Source: Bolinopsis microptera (Eukaryota; Ctenophora; Tentaculata; Lobata; Bolinopsidae). From it: a stretch of 64,000 bases of DNA. Made by a program: the position numbers and the translations under genes. The notes beneath the pieces were generated by a model. The model worked only from the letters and a program-made list of their open reading frames with translations, made no database searches and was not told where the DNA came from. The stretch is from contig NC_087082.1 in assembly GCF_026151205.1 (NCBI RefSeq), positions 19,740,494-19,804,493 on the forward strand, given 5' to 3'. This document shows, piece after piece, positions 30,867 to 39,960 of this stretch. Each line of letters starts with the position of its first letter. Position 1 is the first letter of the stretch.

Positions 30867-33030
30867 GTAGTTGTTCTAAAAAAGGTGTTTGATGTGAAAA
30901 TGGTGCGAGTGATGGTCAACGAATTTCATAAGAATAAATTTGGGCTAGACAGACTTAGTTTATGCGGGCAGACCGGAAGAATGTTCGATTGAACCAAGTA
31001 CTAGTTTTTAATAATCATTTAAGTATGTAGTTAGTTGAACCACATATTCGACGACCACATAGTTTTTCTGGTTATCTATACTATATTTTAAACTTGACGA
31101 AATCCCCCCGGAAACAGGGGCATCGACCAAAAAATGTCCATCTGGTAAGCTAATTTCAGCTCGCAAATGGGTTGCTTTTTGGCAGGGTTGTAAAAAAAGG
31201 ATAGGAATAGGTATATACTTATATAGCATTCTTAGAATTTTGATTTAGGCTTTAGATTTCTTATACCTTATTCGGGAATATTATAGCGGGTTAATTTATG
31301 ACTGGGAAAATTAATGACCGGGAAAAATATGGCGGACTTTCCCAAAACCCGCCAAATTATCCCAGTCATGAATTTACCGGTGGCCGACCTTTCAAGTTTT
31401 TTTTCAGAGGTCAACAAATTTTCAACCGAAATTTCTGTTTTTTGTTACTTGTTAAAGAAGTTATTTCAATTTACAGTTATTGATATTACTCATAAATAGA
31501 AAAAAAGACACGTCTATTTAAAGGAAAATAAATCTAAGCAATAATAAGTCAAATCTTCATTAAAGCGTATTCTCATTCTCATTATCGCTAATGTCCCCTC
31601 CATTATCATTATTGATATCCCCCTGCTGCTGAGCGTCAAATTCGAAGTCGTATTGTTGTCTTCACAAGACTTTCAATTTGTCCGCTAGTGGGGCTACTGC
31701 TCTGAAGGTCAGCCGGAGCTTGATTTCCTGCCCACCGCTTGGTATTGGGGAACGTCTTGGCTTTGCATCTTCAACTGCTCCAGTAATCAATCTACCGTGG
31801 ACCATGAAATAGTGGCACAGTTTACTCACTTCTAGCGGGATGTGACCACAAGTTAATTTAACGAAAAACTCCCTCTTTCTTTAGTCTACACACTGCACAC
31901 GAGAAGCGATCAATCTTTAGCGACTCAGCTGATGTCTCTCGCTCCAAGTCCATTCATGGGCAAGAGAAATGAGAATCACGGTTTATCCTGAAATCTGATT
32001 TCTATAACCAAATTGTGATTTTTATAACGAAATTATGGTAGCAACAGCCAATAAAGTTACAGCCCTCCATCCACTGCTTCAAAAGTCTTCTCTAGCACAT
32101 ATGAGACTTCAGGTAAAATATAATGATCACCACCCCCTTGGAACCCCATAATCTGACTCGGCGGGTTTTATTTGACATACGTTGCATGCCACTTTTCGCG
32201 CGCGAAGCGCGCGCCGCCGAAGGCGGTGAGGTAAAATAAACGTTAGATAAAAAAAAAATATTATCTCTGATATTGGGATACGAAACATGTATCAAGGTTT
32301 TATTATGACTGGTAAAATTTTTGACCGGGAAAAATATGGCGTAATTTTCAAAAACCCACCACTTTATCCCAGTCATAATATTCCCGAGTAAGGAAATTAA
32401 CGTCGGTGAGGTAAAATAAACGTTAGAATAATGCCGTAATTTCGTCAAAGGTTACCTGCGCCCGTGCGCCGTTGCGCAGCAACATCAAAACATTGCCAGT
32501 GCGCGAGCAACACAGATTTGCAACGTGCGTTGTTATGTTTTATGATATTTATATACTTCATGATTAGCTCACGCTATAACTATTCATAACTTTTTTTGTG
32601 ATTGATATTTTTGATGCGGTAAAAGGTATCGATTAGGGAATTCGATTACTTATAACTTACTTACTTTGGTTACTTTGGTTGTGTTTATCCTCGTAGCAGG
32701 AAGGGTCATCAGATTTCTGACCACCTCGATGGCGAGTAGTCTACCAGGGAATTAGACCAGCTGCAGCTATAACCGGAAGTCGGAGGGTTGTCCGGTATCA
32801 AAGCAATAAACTTGGACAAACTAACTAACTTTGTCGTCAATTTCAAATACAATCCATACTTTTTGCAGTACAGAGCTTAAACTTTAAGCTTTAACTTTAA
32901 GTTAAAGCTAAATGGTGAAGAGATTAGAGAAATTTAAACATAAATGATTTTGTAAATTTCTTCGAACAAAGCTTTCGACTTGCGGGTTTTTAGTATACTA
33001 TGTATAGTCATGTATACATGACTGTTTCAG
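30867..33030. other. Repeat-rich interval upstream of the receptor gene
   Basis: No gene is supported. Two related blocks share ATGACTGGGAAAATTAATGA-type ends: 31296-31375 and 32306-32385. Each ends in an inverted CCCAGTCAT, so they look like short hairpin-type elements. CGCGCGCGAAGCGCGCG near 32197 and GCCGCCGAAGGCGG near 32210 are GC-rich palindromes. A 24-base string beginning CGGTGAGGTAAAATAAACG occurs at 32223 and again at 32404, flanking the second block. The remainder to 33030 is AT-rich and, if the gene model is right, would be intron or upstream flank of the receptor. Confidence 0.45.
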
Positions 33031-36000
33031 GTCTTGAAAGATTTTCTTGGGGTGATTTCTATAGCTGGTCAGATTGTTCAGCCGACTGTGGAGGAGGCAC
33101 TAGATCCAGATATAGGCTGTGTGAAATTAGAAAAAAAAATGCAATGATTGCTATGGATACCCCATTGGGACAGTCATATTGTGAAGGGAATAGTACCGAG
33201 TACCAGATCTGCAACTCAAAGAAATGCCCTAGTGAGTGTAACAAAACAATTCGCGACATGATTCTAAGTTAGGAATAAGTTTTACCAACATTGCTTTTGT
33301 AACTACTCAACTATATATATCTGACCATATATTTTGGACATTTTAAAGTTAGATGCTGTTAGTGTTCAAATTAATGAAGTACAGCAAAAATTCTAAAACT
33401 TGCCAGATTATATACCGTCGAATTTTGTGTACCGTTATACCATTGTTTAATCCCCAGAAATGTGCGACTTCGTAAATGGGAAGAGTTCTATCCCATGTAC
33501 GACATGGGATATAATGTTAAATAAAATGAAAAATCTTAATATATAACGTATTAAAATTGGACTTTCTGTATTTAATAAATATAATCGTCTAAAGCATTGC
33601 TTACTATTACAGATGAAGTTCAGTTTTCTCTTTACGGGACGGATGGTAAACCAAGCAACGGAAGTGCTGGAGTAGTTTTGGTTAAAGTGCTTAACCGGGT
33701 TTGGCTACTAATGTTTTATATTGTATTATTGTAACTGTCTTAATGTGAAAGTAACTAGTATAAAGGCCCCGTGAACGAATATTTAATATTATATTATATC
33801 TTTATAATATGTGTATTTCAAAACGTCTTTACTGCACCAGCTCAAGGAATAAAAATGTGTATCCGAAAATATTGAAAGAGTTGGAAAATGTTTCAGTTTA
33901 TAAATATTTATAAAATTGTCAATCAAAACATTGTTAATTTTTATTGATATTCAGCACAAACTGCGTTTTCACAACATTCTTTTGTGTGGTTTGGCCTAGT
34001 CGAACAAAAATATATTTGATAAATATCTAAAATTTGACAATATTTTTCATCTGTTTTTGTTTTCAGACAGCAACCGTCTCTCTGTCGAACTTCTCAGACT
34101 ACAAAGCAAATGTCATATGCAAGAAGCTTGGGTATGATTATGCCGAGGATTGGTTTGATTTAGATAACGAGTACTTTTGGGGAGCGATAGAAACCTGGTA
34201 AGGAACGCTTTATTTATAACTGTTTTAGTGCTTAATGACAAACTTTGTGGCGATGTTAAACAATGTGCTTCTGTGAAAGCGGGAAAACTTTTGACTTAAT
34301 TTTTATTAGAATTGATTATTTGATCAATGAATAGAGACTTTGTATTTAATTAACGAGCAAATTTTGATTTTGCGGCTTGGATCAAATTTGTCTGATTTTT
34401 ATTTCATTTTGCTCAATCCCGTTTCTCAAGATGGTCAAAAATACGGTCTCTTTTGCTCCTAAGCATTTAATTTCAATATCAACTTCAACTTGAGGACTGC
34501 TCCAACAAAAAATCCCTTTTAAACAAGTGCTGAATTATAATTGTGCAAGTGTACATTATGTTCTCATCAATTAAATTCCAAACACAGGATCACTGTATTA
34601 GATGATGCACCAGAACGATACCAAGAAATCCTGAAACATGGCGATAACAAAGAAAATACAGCAATGAGAAATCTGCTAGATCATGCTAGAGTGATGACAA
34701 ATTTTTCTTGTGATAAAACTAAAAGTGATTTTGATTTCGATAGCTGTTCTTATTCCTTGGAGAGGAGACATTTCCGTACGGGCAATAAATATAATAACTA
34801 TACATTGGGACTTCTTTGCAATGTACAGCCTGGTAAGTCCTAAATATACCATTTATCTTAGCATATTTCTTTTTATTTGTTGTGTCTAACAATTAATAAT
34901 ATAAAATATTAAAGAATATACAAATGGACATTTATTACTTATTTTCAGTTTATTCTTATTTTCACCTTTAGCGGCTGAAAAATATTTACGCTGCACACTG
35001 CACACTGGTTTTGAAGCAACATTGATATTGTTATTTCTTTAAAAATTATTTCAGGATCGTGTAACATTGCCGAAACTAACGGATTTTTTAAAAATGTTTG
35101 TCAACAAGACGAAAATTTTAAAATTATTGAATGCATCGATTCCTCAAAATATTACGTATATCTTCCACGTAAGCGACCGAAATCAGCAAACTACCGCTAC
35201 CCTGAAGTAACAAAGCTCTGTTCTAAGGATCCTCGCATTTATCAAGGTTGTATAGATGACGAGCAAAACACCATATCATTATCACTGATGTTACAATCAG
35301 GAGACAATTCGAAATCTTTTTGTAACAGAAATTTTACAAAACAGATTAGGGTAGTAAAACCTGATGTTTTCACCCTTATCCCTGATGATCCATTTTATAT
35401 GGCCAGGGGTTTTTTTATGACTAATTTTACTACATGTAATGGATTATGTGAAGTTCATGGTTGTCTTGATGAAGCGTTGTGTAATGGTTATCGTTATGGT
35501 ATATTTTGTGAGAGTATCACAAATAATATGTCATATGTGAGCGTGCAACAAATATGCGATACCAGAGTTGATTGCGAAAGTGGTGAGGATGAAATTGGTT
35601 GTAACAAGTACAATCATCATATGATAGATCTCTATACTGGTAAGAATGGTTTATTTAACATAAAACCTCGAGGAAATGAAGCCATCAATTATTTGGATTA
35701 CAAAGATAACCTTGCTCAGAAAAAACTGTATGAAGATGTCAAAAAGAGCAAACAATGCCTTCCAACATGGAATCCAATACCGAATCCAGAATGGAATCGA
35801 GAATCATCGTTCTCATACCAGAGGCTTTCTAATTTTACAAGATGTTCTGCGCTAATTATTTATAGAGCTTTCTATATTGATTTATCAACAAACATAATGA
35901 AGCAAGTTGACGGTAAGCCGTATGTGCCATACTGCAAATTCTTTATGGATCAAACCAATTGTACGGACCCAATGAGAGGAGTAGTGTCGTGCATGATTGA

Positions 36001-38707
36001 CGGCTACCCATCTACAGTGTCTAAATTTGCCACCTGCGTTCAGAACCCAGGTTTGTGCGATGATGGGTTTGACAGCTTATGTTTGAGAACCAGTCGCTCT
36101 TGTAATGTCCATAAGCATCGATTTTGCAATGGAATTTCAGACTGTTCCGATAAAAGTGATGAAACATCCAAGATCTGTGACAGAATGACTTTGTCTACAT
36201 GTTCCCGCCGATATCGTCACGACAAAAAACTTCCCATACCCATCTCTTGGCTGATGGACGGAAGTAAAGACTGTCTTAAGGGAGAAGACGAAACAGAAAT
36301 CTGGCCAACATGTGGAATCGGCAGATTGTCTCGTTATGTGCCTGACAGCAGTAAATGTGAAGATGTTTACATCTGCAGCCCTAGATCGTACCATTACGTA
36401 ATGTTCCAAGATCTGTGTAACGGTTATGACATTTGTGATCATGCAAGAGTTTGCGGTCAGACTAGATCATCCGAACATGTTTTCACAAACCCCATCGCCA
36501 TTGGAACAAGAAATCCATTGGAATTTCTTATACATTGTGTTGCCGGAGTGAGTACAAGTTTAGGTCACTATATATCACAATGCGTCAAAAAAGATTTCTT
36601 GCCAGTCTCAATTTTTGGACTCGATGGTATACCAAAGATTGTTTTACCAAAGACCATGGTAGACTGCACAAACGTATATGGAAGAGTGTACGTTTATCTT
36701 AGTTGCTTGAAAAAATGCAAAGAGCAGCCTGTTTGTCCATTGCGACCACTTAACTATGACTCATGTAAGATTGATAATCAATACGAGGACAGGATTTTTA
36801 CAATAGAAAATAAGAATCGCCTGACCTTTTTAAATAAAAATAAGAAAAGTGGACGGTATCAAAATAACATATTTCTCTGCAACAACGATAGATGTGTCGA
36901 TTATGACAAAGTTTGCAATTTGGTAGACGATTGTGGCGATAGCTCAGATGAAGATACATGTATTAACAACTTTTTATGCATATCTTCAAAACGCTTCATT
37001 GGACGGAGCCAGAAATGTGATGGGAAAATAGATTGTGCTGACTACACCGACGAGTGCAATGAGGACTGTAGAACAACAATTATTTCAAAACTCTCTCTAA
37101 AGGTTTTCAGTTGGGTTGTTGGTTGTGCAGCAGTTATCCTAAACTCTGTCAAACTTTTTAAGAATTTTAGACACCTGGCAACCAGACATTTTACGTCTGC
37201 ATTGAACAATAAAGCTCTGACAACTGTCATTCATATTGGGGATCTAATAACGGGACTGTACCTGTTAACCATCGCTACTTTAGACTCAGTCATCTTTGCG
37301 GAATCATACTGTAAAGAAAGATATAATTGGTTATCCAGTGATGGGTGTGCTTTCTTGGGAGTGTTCAGTACATTCGGTGGTCAAATATCCCTCTTTTCAA
37401 TGACAGTTCTCAGCATATTTAGGGCTATCGGTATCATCAAAGTCCAAAAACTGACATCCAAACATGCAGCTGCAAAAATGGTCATCATCATCGCAATAAT
37501 GTCAATTGCATCATTTTATCTAGCCTATATCCCCTTAATGGTCCGATATGAGGATATCTTTGTCAATGGCATGACATATAATCCAAACATTACAATATTT
37601 CCAGCATTTGTGACCAAAGACATGCACATTAACAAGATAAGCAAGTATTATGGAAGACTCGTTGACTCTGCCGTGTACACTTGGGCAAAAATCGATAGTT
37701 TGATAAGCCCAATGTTTTCAAACCAATACGGAGGCATAGGGAGACGCAAAGTTCATTTTTATGGCAATGATGGCGTTTGTCTGTTCAAATACTTTGTATC
37801 AGGAGAAGACTCACAAAAAGTTTATGTATGGTCAAATCTAATCCTGAATTTTGTGTGTTTCACCATCATATTTATCTGCTACAGCAAGGTTTTGTTCTTT
37901 ACAAAGAGCTCAAAACGACGAGATAGAATGTGCAATAACGAAGCCCAAAATAGGCGCTCAAGAGATAAAGAGGAACCCAATCTTCAAATAGCCCTCATAA
38001 TTGCGACAGATTTCTTTTGTTGGGTCCCTTTTATATCGGTGTGTATGTTGCATTCTTTTGAATTAATGGATGCTACAGCCTTGTATCCAATATCTTCGAT
38101 CGTGATTCTACCAATAAATTCTGTTATAAATCCCATTCTATATCATGATTACATAATCGTGACAATCAAGTTGATGGTAAATAAAATTAGATATTGGGTA
38201 TCTCTATTTTACATGTCTTATATAAGACGATGTTTACTATCGATAAACAAATTCGCTAGAACTTTACGAAAGAAAAGAGATGTGGAAAGAAACGTCGCCA
38301 TGACTCCGCAATCTGCTTTCAATGCAAATGAGCTGTCAGGACAAAATGAAGAAATCAGAACTTGTAATAATAACAAAACTGTCAACAAGGAAGATTCTAC
38401 TTTTTTGCACAAAAATGATGATACTATGGACTTGGATTCTGCTTCAAAATCAGATATCACAAAAAAGAATTCCACCACATTAAGGGGGGGGGCCAATGGA
38501 TATTTTTTTGTGAAACTTGATTTCGAGATAGCAGTTGACCAACAAACTAGGACCAGTGACCGAACTTTTGAGGGGGTCCCGGACCCTAACCGCCAAACGG
38601 TGCCTGCGGGGCAGCCACGCCCATATTTGGTCCAAATTAGGCCCAATTTAGCCAAATACCCTGAACATGCCCAAAACCCAAATTTTAGGTGCTCTACTTG
38701 TAGCTAG
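33031..38707 (+). CDS. TSP1/SRCR-like/LDLa class A GPCR, multi-exon, 3' end altered by a transposon
   Basis: Five exons join in phase: 33031-33231, 33613-33686, 34067-34197, 34588-34832 and 35055-38707, with AG acceptors and GT donors (the donor at 33687, GTGCTT, is weak). The exons encode a thrombospondin type 1 repeat (WSDCSADCGGGTRSRYRLC), an SRCR-like segment (ANVICKKLGYDYAEDW), a Cys-containing linker, then a large ectodomain. LDLa-type modules there include CDTRVDCESGEDEIGC, CNGISDCSDKSDE, CNLVDDCGDSSDEDTC and CDGKIDCADYTDEC. Seven hydrophobic helices follow from about codon 598 to 955 counted from the ATG at 35288. Helix 3 ends in FRA instead of DRY; helix 7 has NPILY (NPxxY type). LDLa-class A receptors include the relaxin receptor and GRL101-like groups; no leucine-rich repeats are seen here. 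Ligand unknown. The 5' exon or exons are missing upstream on this strand. The last 74 codons come from an inserted element. Confidence 0.88.
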
Positions 38708-39840
38708 TGGTCTCCTGAACTCGTATATGAAATTTCATCAAGATTGGACAAAAAATGACTGAGTTATGAGCCAAAAACCATATGCCCATATTTGGGCATA
38801 CGCACCAAATTTGGTAGATTTCGTCCCATAAATTGGTCAAATATCAATATTTTTCACTGAAACTTACTTTATATGAAAGGTAAGCCTAAACTACATATTC
38901 TCTGTAAGTTATAGCTTTATATCTGTTTAAATGTGGATACTAAGGCGAAAATACCACAAAAAATGAACTAAATTGCCCATATCTCGGTTCGCGATATTCG
39001 CGGAATTGATCTCATTAAAATTGTAACAACTCGATCAGTTTTCAAAATTTTTCCATGAAATTTTCGGAATCGACTCGAAATCGCATTTCCACCTTAGTTT
39101 GAGAACAGATTTTTGATTTAGGCCTCAAAAAAAATTTGGCGGCCAAATTCCAAAATTTTCCCGGAGAAATTCAGAATTTGGCCGCCAAATTTTTTTTGAG
39201 GCCTTAATCAAAAATCTGTTCTCAAACTAAGGTGGAAATGCGATTTCGAGTCGATTCCGAAAATTTCATGGAAAAATTTTGAAAACTGATTGAGTTGTTA
39301 CAATTTTAATGAGATCAATTCCGCGAATATCGCGACCCAAAATATGGGCAATTTAGTTCATTTTTTGTGGTCTTTTCGCCTTAGTATCCACATTTAAACA
39401 GATATAAAGCTATAACTTACAGAGAATATGTAGTTTAGGCTTACCTTTCATATAAAGTAAGTTTCAGTGACAAATATTGATATTTGACCAATTTATGGGA
39501 CGAAATCTACCAAATTTGGTGCGTATGCCCAAATATGGGCATATGGTTTTTGGCTCATAACTCAGTCATTTTTTGTCCAATCTTGATGAGATTTCATATA
39601 CGACTTCAAGAGACCACTAGCTACAAGTAGAGCACCTAAAATTTGGGTTTTGGGCATATTCAGAGTATTTGGCTAAATTGGGCCTAATTTGGACCAAATA
39701 TGGGCGTGGCTGCCCCGCGGGCACCGTTTGGCGGTTGGGGTCCGGGACCCCCTCAAAAGTTCGGTCACTGGTCTTAGTTTGTTGGTCAACTGCTATCTCA
39801 AAATCAAGTTTCACAAAAAAATATCCATTGGCCCCCCCCC
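38484..39840. mobile_element. 1.36-kb foldback element with TTAA target duplication, inserted in the GPCR coding exon
   Basis: Two arms of 667 bases (38484-39150 and 39174-39840) are near-perfect inverted repeats around a 23-base loop. Each outer end is a run of nine G (or C) followed by CCAATGGATATTTTTTTGTG. TTAA flanks both sides (38480-38483 and 39841-39844), as expected of a target-site duplication of the piggyBac type. The element encodes no transposase. It carries, in both arms, the block ACCAACAAACTAGGACCAGT, also found in other repeats of the window. Transcribed, it would form a very long RNA hairpin. The class is inferred from TTAA only; a G-run end is not typical of known piggyBac ends. 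Confidence 0.93.
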
Positions 39841-39960
39841 TTAAATAAAACAGAAACTGAATATTCGAAAATTTTCCTAACAGGAAAAGTTTTCGCGAGC
39901 AAATTCAGTATTACGCAAACGATATTGACAACCATTCCTGAAGAATGCGAAACATCTTAA
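39841..39960 (+). pseudogene. Displaced native 3' end of the GPCR reading frame
   Basis: If the foldback element and one TTAA copy are removed, the GPCR frame continues from the leucine codon at 38480 into this segment and stays open for 38 more codons, to a TAA at 39958-39960. With the element in place, this stretch is no longer translated and a 74-codon element-derived tail is used. This segment lies in the cytoplasmic tail, after the seventh helix. The continuity of frame is directly visible; the idea that this is the ancestral C-terminus follows from it. Confidence 0.85.

Follow-up and report, generated by a model that had tools for sequence, protein, structure and literature searches.

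A young palindromic element, probably of Kolobok type, near the end of a receptor gene from a duplicated ctenophore family

We analysed a window of 64,000 nucleotides from the ctenophore Bolinopsis microptera (contig NC_087082.1, positions 19,740,494 to 19,804,493 of the forward strand), in which the open frame at window positions 35015-38707 encodes an LDL receptor class A (LDLa) domain and a 7tm_1 domain together, as detected with Pfam. By this domain content the host gene is an LDLa-containing rhodopsin-type receptor, and relaxin receptor 1 gave the lowest E-value among PDB sequences for the same frame. The last exon appears to start at about 35055, as judged by an acceptor signal (TTATTTCAG) that ends at 35054; a donor, CTG/GTAAGT, was read by eye directly after 34832. 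An upstream exon candidate carrying a thrombospondin type 1 (TSP1) domain presumably belongs to the same gene, given its order and strand. The receptor family is large, with at least 71 matching pieces in the genome (40 of 745 candidates scored), long open last exons and close copies along C11. Coordinates of the features are collected in Table 1.

Table 1. Features of the receptor gene and of the inserted element (window positions).
Feature	Position	Strand	Details
Upstream exon candidate, TSP1 domain	33015..33272	+	PF00090, E 3.6e-09; exon ends unproven
Native part of last exon, LDLa/rhodopsin-type receptor	35055..38479	+	open frame; paralogs match through residue 1154
LDL receptor class A domain	36866..36961	+	PF00057, residues 618-649
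Matched part of 7TM domain	37673..38143	+	PF00001, residues 887-1043, E 6.3e-15; ends at NPILY
NPILY motif	38129-38143	+	end of matched 7TM part
New conceptual C-terminus	38480..38707	+	75 codons + TAG
TTAA target-site copy, left	38480..38483	.	read from sequence
Left arm of palindromic element, 678 nt	38484..39161	+	starts with 9-G run, 38484-38492
Single central base between arms	39162..39162	.	inverted-repeat search
Right arm, 678 nt	39163..39840	-	last bases are 9 C
TTAA target-site copy, right	39841..39844	.	read from sequence
Displaced native end of receptor frame	39845..39960	+	TAA 39958-39960; stop common to paralog L009

A preliminary description of this DNA had placed a transposon of 1.36 kb, flanked by TTAA on both sides, in the last coding exon of the receptor. 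This is indeed the case: the element proper occupies 38484-39840 (1,357 bp) and is a near-perfect palindrome of two 678-nt arms around one central base. The inverted repeat, 38480-39161 against 39163-39844, measures 682 nt per arm when the TTAA is included, and over this length 20 mismatches leave the arms 97.1% complementary. The arm length of 667 bases given previously was therefore slightly short. With long inverted arms and almost no spacer (678 + 1 + 678), the sequence is a foldback element in the structural sense. A search with its terminal 21-mer, allowing up to three mismatches, returned two matches in the window, which are the two element ends, compared with 0.00 expected from 100 shuffles. 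The long hairpin that had been proposed is likewise predicted by RNA folding of the element, which yields a single long hairpin at -1202.8 kcal/mol (a value obtained with no shuffled control and at a length above 1,000 bases).

The receptor frame enters the element and continues for 75 codons if the TTA within the TTAA is taken as the first, or 74 after it, before TAG at 38705-38707, in agreement with the 74 element-encoded codons described earlier. When the flanks are joined over one TTAA, the frame instead runs for 39 codons including the TTA (38 after it) to the native TAA; the restored 38-codon frame of the preliminary description is thus upheld, and paralog L009 uses the same stop and has no element. 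The insertion lies 112 residues beyond NPILY. On paper, then, the receptor would keep its core and these 112 residues, lose its last 39 residues and gain 75. The claim that the cytoplasmic tail is replaced holds only in part: the conceptual C-terminus is altered, but because 112 native residues after NPILY stay and the loss is confined to the distal 39, the tail is modified rather than replaced.

Five close paralogs (L006-L010), with DNA identities to the window of 94.9-96.5%, were read across the insertion site, and the element is absent from all five. The site is a single TTAA in L010 and TTGA in L006, L007, L008 and L009. Natural tail ends differ among these genes: L009, like the window copy minus its element, stops at codon 1194, compared with codons 1213, 1214, 1214 and 1209 for L006, L007, L008 and L010, respectively. 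Over 1,122 codons, dN/dS between the window copy and the five paralogs is 0.45-0.52 (dS 0.065-0.081), and the paralog-paralog pairs give 0.40-0.61, so that the window copy upstream of the insertion falls inside the range of its family. Because the frame is open up to the insertion and dN/dS is well below 1, the receptor gene may still be used, and a new tail could be tolerated or useful; the existence of near-identical paralogs means equally that loss of the tail end may have little effect. Early stops in L008 (codon 8) and L010 (codon 3) precede the inferred exon start at 35055 and are therefore uninformative about the protein. Stops inside the match are present in two more members of the family, at C11:18461792 (two TGA and two TAA) and C11:19997378 (one TAA). 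Among the matches listed in each search, only one is 100% identical to the locus, so that the assembly shows no second allele, although the animal itself may still have one.

The element belongs to a repeated family. In genome searches, for which only the best candidates were scored, we found 49 ends with the exact 9-G run, 101 with a G-run of any length, and 54 further ends of a variant in which CCAATGG is followed by a base other than A. We counted 466 occurrences of an internal 28-mer, compared with 0 for its reversed control, and because the window copy carries this 28-mer or a near form in each arm, we estimate the family at about two hundred copies or more. For pairing we used 100 of the 101 any-run ends and 53 of the 54 variant ends, leaving out C4:4501412 with its interrupted G-run. 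These 153 ends formed 47 inward pairs within 10 kb, of which 44 span 1,364-1,371 bp and the remaining three 2,277, 3,186 and 6,802 bp. None of the three longer pairs provides an autonomous partner. The 6.8-kb pair (L026) is a foldback copy containing frames that look, by eye, like reverse transcriptase; the 2.3-kb pair (L039) has a 907-bp insert with listed frames of 71 and 61 aa; and in the 3.2-kb pair (L027) a partial copy stands next to a full one, the right end of which had already been counted within a pair of 1,367 bp.

To compare full copies, we applied a pattern demanding TTAA and a G-run at both ends to 13 fetched copies, 11 of which fitted and were combined with the window copy. Note that TTAA at 12 of 12 copies is consequently no independent test of the target site, because the pattern itself requires it. 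When aligned in whichever orientation matches better, the 11 others share 98.2-99.1% identity with the window copy, and their flanks are unlike. Each of the 12 differs from the consensus by 5-13 substitutions, the window copy by 11 in 1,365 (0.8%), 8 of them private, and the two consensus arms differ from each other at 11 positions. Set against a paralog dS of 6.5-8.1%, this 0.8% indicates that the window copy is young. Older copies are also present, at about 95% (L027) and 91% (L025) in comparison with the consensus. The two copies that failed the pattern, L022 because its G-run is too long and L023 (the same as L048/L049) because its left end reads TTCA, are 98.4-99.6% identical to the consensus, and L044/L045 has no TTAA at its right end. 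Such exceptions to the TTAA rule could reflect mutation, deletion or recombination.

We next consider what may have moved the element. MITEs mobilised by piggyBac have 5'-CCY termini, which the foldback element lacks. Kolobok transposons produce TTAA duplications and have 5'-RR/YY-3' ends, which differ from those of piggyBac (PMC9587614), and T2-MITEs are described as having a TTAA target and AGGRR termini (PMC6004289). In the window copy, TTAA stands on both sides; 11 of the 13 copies tried have a TTAA end pair of the form that the selecting pattern demands, and the empty site of L010 holds a single TTAA. The ends are GG...CC in the window copy and the 11 other pattern-selected copies, and the entire element is one inverted repeat. 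Taken together, the TTAA and the 5'-GG...CC-3' ends suit a non-autonomous Kolobok-type element better than a piggyBac one. THAP/Kolobok-like elements are present in the genome: frames with THAP and a Mutator-like transposase match lie in four elements of about 4.3-5.2 kb with TTAA/AGG ends (L029-L032), two of which are 99.5% identical (L029/L030) and two 99.1% (L031/L032). These are probably recently active relatives of Kolobok, as judged by their ends, THAP and DDE-type match rather than by a Kolobok model. The THAP elements start with A and the foldback element with G. Two further loci, L041 and L042, have TTAA/AG inverted ends, and none were found for L040 and L043. The TTAAGGGG start is absent from the eight THAP/transposase loci read (L029-L032 and L040-L043); CCCCTTAA occurs once in L029, just outside its element, and once in L042.

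The main alternative is that the foldback element is a MITE mobilised by piggyBac, which shares the TTAA target; four genome matches, located in open frames of 678-681 aa, cover the piggyBac domain model from end to end. Nevertheless, the element begins with GG, and the foldback consensus has no match in the five piggyBac loci fetched (L011-L014 and L028), so we consider this origin unlikely. The consensus gave no match to the THAP loci L029-L032 either, and a transposase-coding element with the exact foldback ends was not found among the piggyBac and THAP loci read.

Other copies also sit within coding frames. The copies used for reading flanks were mostly picked for long frames, and their count is not a rate. 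Among the 12 sites parsed (8 of 10 fetched pairs, L002-L004 and L034/L035, leaving out L033, L044/L045 and L048/L049), two have a junction-crossing frame with a Pfam domain above the cut-off. At one of them (L052/L053, C6:8724845-8726210), the foldback copy lies nine codons past the ATG of a RAI1-like gene (PF08652, 2.1e-15), and at the other (L034/L035, C6:2065542-2066906), it lies within a TSP1 frame (PF00090, 2.4e-14) with a hydrophobic N-terminal stretch noted by eye. Pfam matches above the cut-off were absent from two more junction-crossing frames (107 and 104 aa) and from a 144-aa frame before the L033 copy, and a PDB search with the RAI1-like frame gave no match. Because PF08652 has 24 matching pieces in the genome, the interrupted RAI1-like gene is likewise in a multicopy family.

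The length of the new receptor end depends on the terminal G-run. When run lengths from 6 to 13 were tried, the long tail (74-76 codons) was preserved at 6, 9 and 12, and the lengths 7, 8, 10, 11 and 13 gave only 10-14 codons (10-13 at 8, 10 and 11); the window copy has 9 G and hence the long-tail frame. Among the element ends listed, the run varies from 8 to 13 G, and this homopolymer at a transposon end is unstable. Three loci (L022, L044 and L046) have terminal runs of at least 20 G, as against 9 in the window copy. We also scored 150 arm frames out of 1,960 candidates, and only that of the window sits in an open frame longer than 219 aa. The other 149 scored arms contain the same arm frame, within open frames of 73-219 aa, and the 75-codon extension is therefore a by-product of the element.

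These observations bear on the idea that the insertion was an adaptive exon capture, in which a new functional cytoplasmic end alters coupling, trafficking or stability. The 75 open codons inside the element, the open upstream receptor with its ordinary dN/dS, and the singular length of the window frame among those scored would all be in keeping with such a capture. However, the copy is young by its 11 substitutions from the consensus (8 private), the tail hangs on a mutable G-run, and the arm frame is common to the other scored arms, and we regard adaptive capture as very unlikely. A further conjecture, that an expressed element-derived tail is switched by G-run slippage between 75-codon and 10-13-codon ends, so that a transposon end would work as a mutable switch of the C-terminus in this multigene family of receptors, strikes us as extremely improbable.

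Introners carry a splice donor and acceptor at or beside the element ends. If the element were spliced out in this manner, the protein would be nearly unchanged, and there are AG sites just past the right TTAA, at 39852-39853 (8 bases after it) and 39882-39883, such that some weak donor-acceptor pairs restore the native frame. The best donor among the 15 GTs between 38201 and the stop, however, has only 6 of 9 consensus matches; by comparison, 101 of 3,559 GT sites in the window score 7 or more, and the gene's own CTG/GTAAGT scores 8 by a hand count. Moreover, the element ends have no GT or AG. We set this explanation aside on these splice signals and assign it very little probability. An assembly artefact, for which the arms were to be checked, has almost negligible probability: near-perfect palindromes can form during library making, but the same palindrome occurs at many unrelated genomic places with unlike flanks, both arms carry differences that recur across the family (11 when the consensus arms are compared) and 44 pairs fall at 1,364-1,371 bp, and the artefact is rejected for the element family.

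The explanation that we favor, and hold to be probable, is that a recently amplified Kolobok-type palindromic MITE inserted into a TTAA within the codons for the distal tail of one duplicated receptor. A family of non-autonomous palindromic elements would recently have expanded to some two hundred copies or more, a Kolobok-type transposase would have moved this element in trans, and cut-and-paste insertion would have struck one gene of a receptor family that itself duplicated recently. If the allele is transcribed, its product would retain the seven-helix core together with the 112 residues that directly follow NPILY, lose the last 39 and gain up to 75 residues of non-coding origin, the number being set by the G-run. 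The long mRNA hairpin would be likelier to lower expression than to add a function. Given the close paralogs and the youth of the copy, we think it most likely that the allele either still segregates or was fixed recently, with an effect that is close to neutral or slightly deleterious. To judge from sequence comparisons, a redundant gene has most likely received an ordinary insertion, one that is recent and probably not adaptive.

The locus nevertheless offers a clean natural experiment, with one receptor gene carrying the palindrome beside close paralogs with an empty site, so that one can compare directly what the tail end does and how a 1.36-kb hairpin affects expression. In addition, it brings to light a palindromic Kolobok-type family that has been active recently and has interrupted coding frames with some of its copies. 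A limited search of the Kolobok, MITE, Bolinopsis and ctenophore literature, which included sources available in part, found no earlier description of the palindromic element, and a similarly limited search on ctenophore GPCRs with LDL receptor class A domains gave no match.

Drosophila Foldback elements and Galileo have very long inverted arms like those of the window element, but differ from it in target-duplication length and superfamily. The Xenopus T2-MITE/Kolobok families, like the window family, have TTAA targets and purine-purine termini and are non-autonomous and recently active (PMC6004289). Their terminal motif is AGGRR (PMC6004289), whereas the window element has a G-run (8-13 in listed ends) followed by CCAATGG, and the window element, unlike a T2-MITE, is one whole palindrome with a single central base. 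KolobokP shares Kolobok ends with the window element, and its long repeats measure about 450 or 660 bp, but these are direct and flank a coding interior, whereas those of the window element are inverted and enclose no interior (PMC9587614). The same source relates the C-terminal region of P2X7 to the Kolobok KolX protein, which likewise gives a receptor a Kolobok-related C-terminal part; P2X7, however, represents an old fusion with a folded domain, in contrast to the recent insertion in the window receptor, whose frame is of non-coding origin (PMC9587614).
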